Shown: positions 34,187 through 49,798 of the stretch, piece after piece
Layout: the number at the start of each line of letters is the position of its first letter
Position numbering within the stretch: position 1 is the first letter of the stretch
Assembly: GCA_016183005.1 (NCBI GenBank)
Contig: JACPFN010000011.1
Location: 62,001 to 126,000, forward strand
DNA length: 64,000 nt
From: Candidatus Babelota bacterium
GTDB taxonomy: Bacteria; Babelota; Babeliae; Babelales; Chromulinivoraceae
Reading direction: 5' to 3'
The notes under the pieces: model-generated
Databases searched by the model: none
Seen by the model: only the letters and a program-made list of their open reading frames with translations
What the model was told of the DNA's origin: nothing
Made by a program: the position numbers and the translations under genes

Positions 34187-35674
34187 TTACTTATCATCTA
34201 AAAACTTGGCAAGGTATGCATAAAGCTGCTTTTTATTCATAACCTTTGTATTAATATCTTGAATCTTACCATCCTTAAAGACCAATAATGATGGCAACTT
34301 AGATATTCGAATGTCATAATCAAGGGCAAGGTCGCGATAAATTGTCTTTTTAACCAACGTATAATTCGCTTTTAATATCTTAACCCTGTCATCTAATTTA
34401 TGTGCAACAGCCTCAAGATGTGGAAGCATTTGGATGCAACAAGGACAGTCCAATGAATAAAAATCAAGCGCTACTACCCCCTTAGCCTTCATAATCAAAT
34501 CCTCAAGCTCTTTGGTAGTAGTAATTTCTTGCAACTCTTTTTTAACATCTGAAAAATGCTCAAAGAAATTTTTATCCAATTCAGCACCAATTTCTGAATT
34601 AAATCCTATCTCGTATAAAAATGAAGTGGTATCTAATGCAGCTTTAGCACCTTCACCAGCAGCTACAATTGCTTGTCGATAGTAAGGATCCTGAATCTCA
34701 CCAGCTGCAAAAACACCTGGTACAGATGCTTCCTGAGTTCGATCCTTCATAATCAAGTAACCATGCTTATCAAGCGCAATGCCTTCGCTTAAAATTTTAT
34801 TATTAGGATCATGCCCAACAGCCAAAAACACTCCATCCATAGCTACTTTCTGAGTGCTTTCCTTCTCGTTGTCATACACATCAATAGCTGTTACATGCTC
34901 CCCATCGCCATAAATTCTAGTAACCTCTTTATGATATTCAATAGACGCATTTGGATAACTCTCTATTTTTTTCAAACCGGCCGCTGCAGCTTTCATGTGT
35001 CCCTTACGAACAAGAACTTTGACACTTTTGACATACGGAGAAAGCTCAAAAACCATCTCAACCGCGCTATCACCGCCACCAACAATAACAATATCCTTAT
35101 CTTTAAAAAATCGTGCATCACAAACAGCACAAGTGGTCACACCCTTACCCCAATACTCCTGCTCACCGGGAACATTAAGCCTTCTAGGGGTTGCACCAGT
35201 CGCCAAAATAATAGAAAGTGCCTTAAATTCACGCCCTTCCTCTGTTTTTATGTTAAATGGCCAAGAGGTAAAATCAACACTGGTAACAACATCATGAATC
35301 ATAACTGAACCAAATGACTGCGCCTGTTTTTTCATATCATTCATAAGCTCTGGACCAAGGACCTTTTCACGGCCTGGCCAATTTTCAACATAGGTCGTTT
35401 GAGTTAATTGTCCAAGAGGCATAGCTCCTGCAAAAATAAATGCTTTCATCCCCGCTCTGGCAAGATATAAAGCGGCACTTAGCCCAGCAGGGCCAGATCC
35501 TATAATAACAACGGGGACAACATTCTCCTGCTTAACTGCTCTTTCTAATGAATAATCAAGATGATTCAAAGATAATTTTCTCTCAGACTTTCCCACCCTT
35601 AAAAGGGGATTATAACACGCAAATAGAAACGATATTGGAATAGTAATGAGAAAAAATTTAGTAATTTGCTGCAT
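34187..35674 (-). CDS. Exported thioredoxin reductase fused to a thioredoxin domain
   Basis: 495 residues. A leader at 1-20 (KFFLITIPISFLFAC) could be a lipoprotein signal with Cys20, although Phe at -2 is atypical. Thioredoxin reductase domain at about 52-360: FAD motif GSGPAG (59-64), redox pair CAVC (182-185), NAD(P)H motif GGGDSA (199-204) and FAAGEIQD. Thioredoxin-like domain at about 385-495: active site C410-P-C-C413 instead of CGPC, in FYSLDCPCCIQMLPHLE, followed by LPSLLVFKDG. Reductase-thioredoxin fusions exist in some bacteria; a leader on one is unusual because NADPH is cytosolic. No Met, GTG or TTG start lies between the leader and the FAD motif. It may sit in the membrane or the envelope. 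Confidence 0.85.
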   Translation of the reverse strand: MQQITKFFLITIPISFLFACYNPLLRVGKSERKLSLNHLDYSLERAVKQENVVPVVIIGSGPAGLSAALYLARAGMKAFIFAGAMPLGQLTQTTYVENWPGREKVLGPELMNDMKKQAQSFGSVMIHDVVTSVDFTSWPFNIKTEEGREFKALSIILATGATPRRLNVPGEQEYWGKGVTTCAVCDARFFKDKDIVIVGGGDSAVEMVFELSPYVKSVKVLVRKGHMKAAAAGLKKIESYPNASIEYHKEVTRIYGDGEHVTAIDVYDNEKESTQKVAMDGVFLAVGHDPNNKILSEGIALDKHGYLIMKDRTQEASVPGVFAAGEIQDPYYRQAIVAAGEGAKAALDTTSFLYEIGFNSEIGAELDKNFFEHFSDVKKELQEITTTKELEDLIMKAKGVVALDFYSLDCPCCIQMLPHLEAVAHKLDDRVKILKANYTLVKKTIYRDLALDYDIRISKLPSLLVFKDGKIQDINTKVMNKKQLYAYLAKFLDDK

Positions 35675-35985: not shown

Positions 35986-38376
35986 ATGATGAAAATTTTA
36001 TTCTCTAATCGCTTTTTTTTCATATCATTATTACTCACATCTTGTCCATCTATTTTTATTAAAACGTCAGAAGAAGGCTTGCAAACAGCTAACCAAATAG
36101 ATCCAGAACACTTTAAAATGCTTATGGAATCATCACACGAACACACTGAAACAATCGGTTGGGTAGCTCAACAGATTCTCCAAACTCTTTGTACCAACAA
36201 AGAACAGTACCAAATTAAAAATAAAGAAGAAGTTGTTATTACGCTTAAAAGCATTCAAGATCTAGCTAAAGATATCGATGTAACAATCAATAGTAGAAAT
36301 ACCACTCAAGACTTAGCAAAAGCTGCTGTCATTAATAATGGACTCATTCATTTCCTATCAAAAGGACTCGATTCACAGTTTAAAGAGTTCGACATTAGCG
36401 CTTTCTTAGAAACATTACAAAAACGCTCACTTAAAGACCTATCGGATCAAACTGTTATAAATATTATCGAAAAAAACAATCAAGATATTAAATCATTATT
36501 AAGTAAAGTTAGCACCACTGGATTAACCTGGTACAATCTGCTTTATAGAAAAATAAAAGAATATAACGTCTACAACATAACCAAACAAAGCTCTAAAGTT
36601 TTACTACTCGGGGCATTGTTGCTTAGTTATACCTATTGTGTTACAAACACAAATCCTGATGGAAAATTCTTTTTTAGTAAATATACCGACAAGCTTGATT
36701 TTGTTACCCGATGGGCTGATCGTTATATAGGAGGAACTCCATATAAAGATATTCAGGGAGAATGGCATTATCGATTCTTATCAAATAATAACGAAATGCA
36801 AGAATCTTCAATCCCAAGCACCATTTTTCAAACATTCGCAACAAAAACAATGGCCTTTACCAACTCTGGATTTGGTGCAATAACCCCTTTATTTACCATT
36901 AGCTTACCAGCAATCTATAACTATTGTTTTGGAGATGCATACAACTGGACAACAGATCAGATTAACGACAACATACATCGTATTGATGAAATATTAAATG
37001 GATCACAGCCAAATAAAAATATTAATGATGATGGCCAAGAAAAAGTTTACTTTGAAGACCTCATAGGATGTGAAGAGCTTCAAAACCTTGCAAATCAGCT
37101 TGCTGATTTTGTAGAAAATCCATCATATTATGAGCGCTCTAGAACAGAAACGCACCGTGGTATTCTTTTACATGGCCCTCCACAAACTGGTAAATCGAAC
37201 TTTGCTAAAGCACTCAGAACTCTTATTCAAGATAGATTTGGTAATACTAAAAAGATTGGCTTTATTGATGGTAAATCATTAATAGATAGACATATTCCAA
37301 TTGACGCAATCTTTGAATATGCTGCATATGCAGCACCATGTATTCTGTTCCTTGACGAGATAGATTTAATAGCTGGAAACAGAGAAAAAGATCCTGTTCA
37401 AACAGGAAAACTCTTAACCTGTATGCAAGGTATTGATATCACATCAAAACAGATTATTGTCATTGGTGCAACCAATAGGGTTGAACAGCTTGATAAAGCA
37501 TTATTAGTTGATGGTAGATTTGGAAAACAGATCTTAATTGACTATCCGGAATATAAATATCGTAAACAGTTCTTTAAACGAGAACTTGCAAAACGTGCGT
37601 TAGAAATTTCTGATGAATTCATTGACCATATGGCACAAGAAACTGATGGCTGCAGTTATAATAACTTACGAAGAATAATCACTGAGGCTATCATCATTTC
37701 AGGAAATGAACGACGCCCTATCTGTCAAAATGATTTTGAAAAAACTTTAGATATCGACATTAGAAAAATATATTTTGGTAGCAGAGGTCAATCAACAGAA
37801 GAAGAAAAAAATATTATCGCAGCATATCAAGCAGGTAAAGCTCTTGTGCGTCATCTGCTCAATACTGATAAAGAGATCGTTAAAATAACCATCGAAAATG
37901 TTGCTCGAACAATTAAGCCTAAAAAGACCGGGTATGCAATATCTCTTGGAGAAGAAAGTTCTTCTCCAAATGAAAAAATTGCTTCAGAAAAAAGTGAAAG
38001 CAAAACAAAACTTGGCGAAGTATTTGCAAAATCAAAAAACAACAAAAAAGATTTTATCAGTGATCAAGAAATAGAAAAAGAAATTCTCGTTCTTCTTGCT
38101 GGTAATATTGCACAGCAAACTATACTTAAACAAAGTTACAGTCAATGTAATACACATGACCGCGCTGATGCAATGCAAATGATTTATGAAACAATAACTC
38201 ATGGTGAAAAGATTGATGAAAAAATACGCGAACAAGCTCTTATTATTAAAGATAAATACGAAAAAGAACTATTTATCATTTTAGAAAAGAATAAAGAACT
38301 TCTTTTAAAGATAACTAATGCTCTTGTAAAAGATATAACAATCAATCGCAATCAATGGATAAAGTTAATTGCATAA
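35986..38376 (+). CDS. FtsH-like AAA+ protein with an inactivated M41 protease domain
   Basis: 796 residues. A leader at 1-20 ends in the good lipobox LTSC (Cys20). Residues 30-200 are a helical, probably periplasmic region; a membrane segment spans about 203-220 and a second hydrophobic stretch about 294-314. The AAA+ domain (355-600) is intact: Walker A GPPQTGKS (397-404), Walker B ILFLDEID (453-460), sensor GATNR and Arg finger region VDGRFG. After it comes an M41-like helical domain, but where FtsH has HEAGHALV this protein has YQAGKALV (614-621): both His and the Glu are replaced. LLAGNIAQQ and THDRADAMQ still match the FtsH fold. It probably unfolds or remodels proteins without cutting them. 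True FtsH may be elsewhere. Confidence 0.82.
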   Translation: MMKILFSNRFFFISLLLTSCPSIFIKTSEEGLQTANQIDPEHFKMLMESSHEHTETIGWVAQQILQTLCTNKEQYQIKNKEEVVITLKSIQDLAKDIDVTINSRNTTQDLAKAAVINNGLIHFLSKGLDSQFKEFDISAFLETLQKRSLKDLSDQTVINIIEKNNQDIKSLLSKVSTTGLTWYNLLYRKIKEYNVYNITKQSSKVLLLGALLLSYTYCVTNTNPDGKFFFSKYTDKLDFVTRWADRYIGGTPYKDIQGEWHYRFLSNNNEMQESSIPSTIFQTFATKTMAFTNSGFGAITPLFTISLPAIYNYCFGDAYNWTTDQINDNIHRIDEILNGSQPNKNINDDGQEKVYFEDLIGCEELQNLANQLADFVENPSYYERSRTETHRGILLHGPPQTGKSNFAKALRTLIQDRFGNTKKIGFIDGKSLIDRHIPIDAIFEYAAYAAPCILFLDEIDLIAGNREKDPVQTGKLLTCMQGIDITSKQIIVIGATNRVEQLDKALLVDGRFGKQILIDYPEYKYRKQFFKRELAKRALEISDEFIDHMAQETDGCSYNNLRRIITEAIIISGNERRPICQNDFEKTLDIDIRKIYFGSRGQSTEEEKNIIAAYQAGKALVRHLLNTDKEIVKITIENVARTIKPKKTGYAISLGEESSSPNEKIASEKSESKTKLGEVFAKSKNNKKDFISDQEIEKEILVLLAGNIAQQTILKQSYSQCNTHDRADAMQMIYETITHGEKIDEKIREQALIIKDKYEKELFIILEKNKELLLKITNALVKDITINRNQWIKLIA

Positions 38377-47803: not shown

Positions 47804-49663
47804 CTAAAAATTAAGTGACCCCTGAAGCCCTACACTCCACAATTGAACTGCATTATTCGTAGTATTAGTAAATTCTGCACCAGCAACTAAGGCAACCGAT
47901 GGAGCATAATTACAATCTTTCCAATTATAGCCAAAGTGAGTAAATATTTTTCCTGTAAATACACTTGATACTTCTGCGCCACAGATATCAAGAGCTTCAT
48001 CAAGATTTGATGGAATTCTATTTTCAGAAAGACGTGCATCCTTAACACCTTCTGGAAGCGTAGTTGGAGTTGACACTGTTGGATATGAACCAGAAAGAAG
48101 CGCTGAATCTTGTGATTTACCAATTTGCGCTAATGGTTCACAAAGGTAGGTGAAAACATCTAATTCAGGACTTTGCTTATTAGCTATAGTTGTATTACCT
48201 GGTACATAATATGAACTTAGCTGACGACCAAGTACAGCAAAATTATTTAAATCCAATGATTGATTATGAACAGCAGATGCCATATCAATACTTAATTTCT
48301 CACGAGATCTACCCCAAAACTCGCCACCCAACGCAAAATTCCAGTTATCCCAAGCAAAATCTACCATGACAGCTACCGCACCTTCAACTGCAAAATTAGC
48401 AAGCACCGGAAGTGTTGTATAATTAATTGCTATGTCTAAATACTGTGCTTCGTATACTTGAGCATTTGGATTTACTGTTCCATTATCGTTAATTGCTGGA
48501 TTTGGAGATAAATTAGCATATGTTGCTCTATAATCTTGAACTAAAAGATATTTAGAACCAGGTCCATTTTTCTTCAAGTCAAAAGAACGCATACTTGGTG
48601 TTCTTCCATGCATCAAATGCTCTAATTCGCCCTGCAAGGATACTGTTATACGACGATTACATGCTTCATTTTCCCAAACTTGATATAATGCTGAAACTTC
48701 GCCACCAACGCCCCATAAACCAGCCCTACCATATATTGGTTCAAGCATATATAAAGCTAATGGTCTATTACCCGTTGGAAATGAAACCTTAAAACCTAAT
48801 CCTGCAAAACCCTTCTCATCTGCATAGACATTATAACCCAATGTTGCAGCAATATCCGCAAGACGAATAATAGCTAACGAATCTGGAGCTACACGTCCAT
48901 AAGATAGTCCAAACATTTTTCCATAAATTGCTGATCCAGCAAGTTCATCACTACAACCACCAAGACCACCAAAGAAAACATCTGATATAGTTTGATAGCG
49001 ACGTGCAGGAACTGGATATTCTAAAAACTGATAATCAAATTCTGATCCACCACCTGATCCAACCTGTGAAAAGCTTAAATTATTTTCCGGTTGAATAGAT
49101 TTAACTTCTGTTAATCGTGGAGTAACTCTCATGCCACCCATTGGAGCATGCAATCTAAAATACATCCCACGCTCATCAGATTTTTGAACCCAATACACCA
49201 TCATATCAGTACCAATGCTTTGAATTCGCGGATTAAGCTGAATAATGCCACCAATACCATTTTCATCTGTTTGAATATTACCCAAACCTAACTGATAAGC
49301 ATCAAGCTGTGCTCTACCGTCATTATTACCAATAGTGAGCTGATTAGTGCCAGACCAAAATGGCATAGAACCTAAATTCTTGCAACTGTTACATTTTCCA
49401 TCAAAATTTTGCATATATTCTGTAACAAATGATACATCCAATTTTCCATCACGTTTTTCACTTGGATGTGTATGTTTCATTTGAAAAAGATCATGATATT
49501 GATAAGAAGAAAATGAACGAGGGTACCAAAAGTTTTTTGAAATAGAACAATCTGTATCACATTTTTTATTGCAACTTGACTCGCAATCAGCACTTTCAGC
49601 AAGTAAATTAATTACCCAAAAACTGGTCAATATAAGATATAATCCTTTACCTTTAAAATTCAT
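47804..49663 (-). CDS. Cys-rich outer-membrane beta-barrel-like protein, paralogue 4
   Basis: The frame is open to 49798, but AAAGGGA 8 nt before ATG 49663 (MNFKGKGLYL) and the signal peptide there fix the start at 619 residues. After the leader comes a Cys cluster (ADCESSCNKKCDTDCS), then CNSC, LGSMPFWSGTNQLTIG, RSFDLKKNGPGSKYLLVQ, EFWGRSREKLSIDM, LNNFAVLGRQLSSYY, CEPLAQIGKSQDSA, ALDICGAEVSSVFTGKIF and the end LWSVGLQGSLNF, which is nearly identical to paralogue 1. Downstream lies the cyclase relic. Confidence 0.7.
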   Translation of the reverse strand: MNFKGKGLYLILTSFWVINLLAESADCESSCNKKCDTDCSISKNFWYPRSFSSYQYHDLFQMKHTHPSEKRDGKLDVSFVTEYMQNFDGKCNSCKNLGSMPFWSGTNQLTIGNNDGRAQLDAYQLGLGNIQTDENGIGGIIQLNPRIQSIGTDMMVYWVQKSDERGMYFRLHAPMGGMRVTPRLTEVKSIQPENNLSFSQVGSGGGSEFDYQFLEYPVPARRYQTISDVFFGGLGGCSDELAGSAIYGKMFGLSYGRVAPDSLAIIRLADIAATLGYNVYADEKGFAGLGFKVSFPTGNRPLALYMLEPIYGRAGLWGVGGEVSALYQVWENEACNRRITVSLQGELEHLMHGRTPSMRSFDLKKNGPGSKYLLVQDYRATYANLSPNPAINDNGTVNPNAQVYEAQYLDIAINYTTLPVLANFAVEGAVAVMVDFAWDNWNFALGGEFWGRSREKLSIDMASAVHNQSLDLNNFAVLGRQLSSYYVPGNTTIANKQSPELDVFTYLCEPLAQIGKSQDSALLSGSYPTVSTPTTLPEGVKDARLSENRIPSNLDEALDICGAEVSSVFTGKIFTHFGYNWKDCNYAPSVALVAGAEFTNTTNNAVQLWSVGLQGSLNF

Positions 49664-49798
49664 TAGCAATATCCCTTTTTTAGAATAAAAGTATATAATA
49701 TTTTTTTTAGTACTAACATGAATAGATTTTATATGTAAATAAATTAATAAAAAATTTAATTTATTTATATATAAAATTATAATCTTTATAAAACTCAA

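Follow-up and report, generated by a model that had tools for sequence, protein, structure and literature searches.

A Dependentiae-wide family of FtsH-derived pseudoproteases with a retained AAA+ ATPase

We found that a window of 64,000 nucleotides from a Candidatus Babelota bacterium (the whole stretch of DNA that was analysed) encodes an FtsH-derived pseudoprotease whose family extends across the Dependentiae. We base this assignment on profile alignment, phylogeny and residue conservation, and we term the family members pseudo-FtsH. The best explanation, to which we give a probability of about 0.72, is that pseudo-FtsH would be a proteolytically dead, ATP-driven remodelling motor. Such a motor probably acts in the cell envelope or outside, a location that, like the substrate, we infer. 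The phylum consists of protist parasites, and the bacterium would be an energy parasite.

An FtsH relative with an intact ATPase and an erased protease site

Like FtsH (MEROPS M41, TIGR01241), pseudo-FtsH carries an M41 fold C-terminal to its AAA+ domain, with homology extending over both domains (Table 1). Pfam AAA matches with 84 bits (cut-off 21), and the TIGR01241 FtsH model matches residues 342-790 with 150 bits, short of its equivalog cut-off of 600. Furthermore, a profile-profile comparison by hhalign with active FtsH from this phylum gave a probability of 100% (E 8.7e-67, 415 columns), and the match spans the AAA domain and the entire M41 region. This alignment upholds the original prediction that the M41 blocks flanking the lost site persist, although Pfam M41 itself stays sub-threshold, at 15.8 bits against a cut-off of 29.9. 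The proposed derivation from FtsH is likewise what profile alignment and tree agree on, for a family that is conserved and protease-dead.

Table 1. Position of pseudo-FtsH, its domains and motifs, and the neighbouring redox gene in the window
Feature	Residues	Position	Strand	Evidence or remark
Thioredoxin reductase fused to thioredoxin (TrxB-Trx), hydrophobic leader, CAVC and CPCC		34187..35674	-	Pfam
Pseudo-FtsH gene	796 aa	35986..38376	+	Open frame; Pfam AAA; TIGR01241 partial
Signal-peptide-like N-terminus	1-25	35986..36060	+	Charged n-region and short hydrophobic core
LTSC lipobox string	17-20	36034-36045	+	In the window's member only
Family-specific N-terminal region, helical	26-345	36061..37020	+	AlphaFold models
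Weak hydrophobic segment 1	202-220	36589..36645	+	Family mean hydropathy 1.25
Weak hydrophobic segment 2	294-314	36865..36927	+	Family mean hydropathy 0.96
AAA+ domain	352-600	37039..37785	+	Pfam AAA and motifs
Walker A, GPPQTGKS	397-404	37174-37197	+	
Shortened pore-loop-1 region, without the FtsH phi-V-G-x-G	430-441	37273..37308	+	
Walker B, ILFLDEID	453-460	37342-37365	+	
M41-like domain, catalytically dead	604-796	37795..38373	+	hhalign; purifying selection
YQAGKALV, where FtsH has HEAGHALV	614-621	37825..37848	+	
D725, third zinc-ligand Asp position, kept	725	38158..38160	+	Aligned with the FtsH Asp

The classical ATPase features of FtsH are all present in pseudo-FtsH: Walker A, Walker B and the sensor residues were found as predicted, with sensor 1 at N497, and the arginine finger is R511 in GRFGK. 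The predicted replacement of the M41 motif was confirmed as well. All three HExxH residues are gone from the window's protein, the Asp downstream of them (D725) remains, and a scan of the whole 796-residue protein for an intact HExxH elsewhere found neither HExxH nor HxxEH. Besides HExxH, pseudo-FtsH differs from FtsH in having neither the phi-V-G pore loop nor a strong pair of transmembrane (TM) helices, and it carries instead a signal-peptide-like start and about 320 N-terminal residues that have no counterpart in FtsH.

The original prediction had also suggested looking for an intact ftsH elsewhere in the genome, and this 0.9-Mb genome does encode three more FtsH (L001-L003), each with its HEAGH intact. 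One of them, L003 (G000:C15, about 21985-23259, - strand), encodes a 509-aa paralog whose pore loop is shortened and whose start resembles a signal peptide; in the tree, no other active FtsH stands closer to the pseudo-FtsH clade.

Glu is lost throughout the family and the zinc ligands repeatedly

A profile built from 17 members and searched against 101 genomes of the phylum Dependentiae/Babelota recovered long pseudo-FtsH relatives in about 70 of them. The tree and the residue counts are based on 69 aligned members, with the HExxH and pore-loop columns omitted from the tree. The 69 form a single clade (SH-aLRT 100) that is set off by a long stem. Its neighbours are L003 and L002, two active paralogs from the genome that contains the window (supports 92 and 90).

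The substitution seen in the window is part of a pattern that runs across the Dependentiae. Every one of the 69 members lacks the catalytic Glu, which the tree places in one change; for the first and second zinc His it counts 15 and 13 changes, respectively. Both His are retained in 22 members and the Asp ligand in 50, and 25, the window's protein among them, have lost all three HExxH residues. Because members with HQAGH exist, the residue pattern suggests that Glu went first and the zinc ligands afterwards, repeatedly. With states from HQAGH to YQAGK, this phylum-wide bacterial family would show a protease turning into a pure motor.

The ATPase motifs are kept by nearly all members, Walker A and the DE of Walker B in 66 of 69 each and R511 in 68. 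With R511 so widely kept, and with Lys at the second position in an active FtsH (L028) too, we dropped loss of the arginine finger (GRFGK for GRFDR) as a candidate. In addition, dN/dS, where it could be computed for seven closer pairs, ranged over 0.04-0.19 in the AAA domain and 0.11-0.23 in the M41-like domain, values that are rough because dS is near saturation. Judged by these ratios, purifying selection is acting on pseudo-FtsH, even in its dead M41-like domain. One genome (G014) has, after pseudo-FtsH, a second and more degenerate tandem paralog with GPTNSSKG at Walker A and RE at Walker B (L012/L175/L040).

Predicted export signal and placement of the ATPase

The N-terminus of nearly all complete members has the make-up of a Sec signal: a charged n-region, then a short hydrophobic core. 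The lipobox that had been predicted for the window's protein is present as a string, but it is not conserved, and its sister proteins begin like ordinary signal peptides; a lipobox at a plausible position was found only in the window's protein, the IIAC of L054 sitting inside the hydrophobic core. We rejected the lipoprotein reading for this lack of conservation. A search for AxA cleavage sites gave no enrichment, with [AVS]xA in 16 of 62 members versus a shuffled mean of 19.4.

In FtsH a periplasmic domain lies between two strong TM helices, an arrangement that is not found in the pseudo-FtsH family. Mean hydropathy over 19 residues is 2.3-2.4 for FtsH TM helices and 1.0-1.2 for soluble-core windows, the range near which the family means of both weak segments fall, and hhalign gave no profile support for these segments as homologues of FtsH TM1 and TM2. 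Segment 2, which the original prediction had considered as possibly spanning the membrane, is unlikely to do so, since it is no more hydrophobic than the soluble-core windows. The paired charge pattern of the two segments could be read as a membrane hairpin. As these later segments look too weak to stop transfer, we consider it on balance probable from the sequence that Sec exports the N-terminus and that the ATPase ends in the periplasm or further out.

The main rival on topology, which we regard as possible though doubtful, is a membrane-anchored, FtsHi-like motor that faces the cytoplasm, with a periplasmic N-terminal domain and segment 1 as a single TM helix, so that the ATPase would, in the manner of FtsH, handle membrane or translocating proteins from the cytoplasm. 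No other internal stretch is as hydrophobic as segment 1, which in 12 of 65 members reaches a hydropathy of at least 1.6, the customary TM threshold; a signal peptide followed by a single TM helix yields the FtsH orientation, and ATP supply poses no problem to such a motor. However, the family mean of segment 1 lies near that of soluble windows, its positive charge is greater on the N-side (3.05 vs 1.92), the reverse of the charge pattern of a stop-transfer helix whose C-side is cytoplasmic, and the adjacent redox enzyme likewise bears an export-type leader.

An ATPase outside the cytoplasm had been questioned in the original prediction on the premise that ATP is absent there. This objection is weak here, because four open frames of the genome match the ATP/ADP translocase family and the related Chromulinavorax destructans reportedly takes up ATP from its host (PMC6561590). 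An exported ATPase could draw on host ATP as it crosses the periplasm en route to the translocases. In C. destructans, 44% of the proteins carry signal sequences, and M41 is among the predicted secreted proteinases (PMC6561590). Pseudo-FtsH shares the phylum with these predicted secreted M41 peptidases, for which the paper names only ‘M41’, describing no lost active site and leaving the protein unspecified. If the ATPase is exported, pseudo-FtsH runs counter to the rule that confines AAA+ machines to the compartment with the cell's ATP, and it would offer a direct test of whether energy parasites perform ATP- and NADPH-driven work outside the cytoplasm.

A proposed remodelling motor with a shortened pore loop

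In the preferred reading of a remodelling motor, pseudo-FtsH would assemble into a hexameric ring powered by ATP, with the dead M41 domain as its assembly disk or scaffold. Clients would be bound via the family-specific N-terminal region and remodelled or separated, and neither fed to a protease nor degraded. The AlphaFold model of pseudo-FtsH has a mean pLDDT of 75, and its structural matches include FtsH structures, which rank among the top Foldseek hits, and Ycf2-FtsHi chains (8xku). Foldseek on the N-terminal region returned no significant known fold (best E 0.25).

The earlier proposal of an unfoldase or chaperone stands as far as the protein is FtsH-derived and dead, and is weakened as to the unfoldase. 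The FtsH pore-loop motif was found in none of the 69 members versus 19 of 20 active FtsH, the lone active exception being L003 with its HEAGH still intact, and the loop of pseudo-FtsH is mostly 5-7 residues shorter. Because the loop is shortened and is without the motif that threading AAA+ motors have there, classical hand-over-hand threading would not be the default expectation, and a conventional unfoldase is uncertain.

A regulatory subunit is an unlikely alternative in which pseudo-FtsH would co-assemble into hexamers with the cell's active FtsH and tune or block their proteolysis. The two share a common fold and the same genome encodes active FtsH, and plant FtsHi do occur in hetero-complexes with FtsH12 (PMC9020784); against this stand the long stem, the different N-terminal architecture and the shortened pore loop, and an exported pseudo-FtsH would not meet the FtsH ATPase ring. 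Equally improbable to us is a zinc- or ligand-binding scaffold that uses ATP as a switch and performs no mechanical work. Loss of the pore loop favours such a scaffold, and members with both His or with the Asp, none of which has the Glu, are expected if a metal site outlived catalysis, yet the ATPase motifs are near-universal in a family in which 25 members, including that of the window, are without all three HExxH residues. Finally, a decaying ftsH duplicate, at which the lost catalytic motif alone could hint, is refuted: relatives with long open frames occur in about 70 genomes, synteny is conserved and dN/dS is low.

Relation to other inactive FtsH and AAA proteins

The closest in kind to pseudo-FtsH are plant FtsHi1-5 and the Ycf2-FtsHi import motor, which are also FtsH-derived, with HExxH eroded and the ATPase retained. 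Variants of HExxH in plant FtsHi include TEVGV, NEAAM, REAAV and WAAGR (PMC11266112), and these proteins serve chloroplast import (PMC9020784). The reviews consulted describe proteolytically dead FtsH for plants and algae, where it powers chloroplast protein import. Unlike FtsHi, pseudo-FtsH is bacterial, has a signal-peptide start and a shortened pore loop, and has no known translocon partner. The likeness is most simply read as convergent, because pseudo-FtsH branches with the FtsH of its own phylum, in a tree built without FtsHi sequences.

Within the phylum, the AAA-Ulp1 fusions of Babela massiliensis bear predicted signal peptides and have been proposed to be secreted; in some of them the peptidase domain is inactivated (PMC4378268). 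Pseudo-FtsH is comparable in being an AAA protein with a predicted export signal and a dead peptidase domain; compared by description, the fusions differ in carrying a C48 (Ulp1-like) peptidase where pseudo-FtsH has M41. Our literature search found no paper that joins Dependentiae with FtsH.

A divergent thioredoxin reductase-thioredoxin gene and the surrounding block

The TrxB-Trx fusion gene lies head-to-head with pseudo-FtsH, in divergent orientation, in 62 of 70 genomes. Both CxxC sites are present in the window's fusion. We found a hydrophobic leader in 29 of 30 orthologs inspected, the start of the remaining one being not recovered, and some leaders contain a lipobox (LVAC, LAAC, LSGC or LSSC). 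Several leaders without a lipobox carry C-side positive charges too, and their orientation is thus putative. The TrxB-Trx orthologs (L197-L226) are conserved across the phylum and, if outward-facing, need NADPH outside the cytoplasm. Two genomes, G054 and G055, keep the TrxB-Trx gene (L209 and L211) with no pseudo-FtsH beside it.

That pseudo-FtsH works jointly with this adjacent, exported-looking enzyme is possible, if doubtful: TrxB-Trx would reduce disulfides while pseudo-FtsH pulls proteins apart, a joint action that we put forward as a hypothesis. We tentatively extend the preferred remodelling motor to an extracytoplasmic AAA+ ring that would be powered by host ATP and, with the NADPH-dependent thioredoxin reductase, would reduce and pull apart proteins of the envelope or of the host compartment.

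At 39142-42842 and 47804-49798 (-) the window encodes three proteins of 600-660 aa that are related to one another and have secretion-type starts; the one searched against Pfam, at 39145-40986, has no match. The block around pseudo-FtsH (24897-52523) has an order that is conserved across several families of the phylum and includes a giant secreted protein, an alpha/beta hydrolase, a lipoprotein-like protein, an FtsX-type permease and dnaA.
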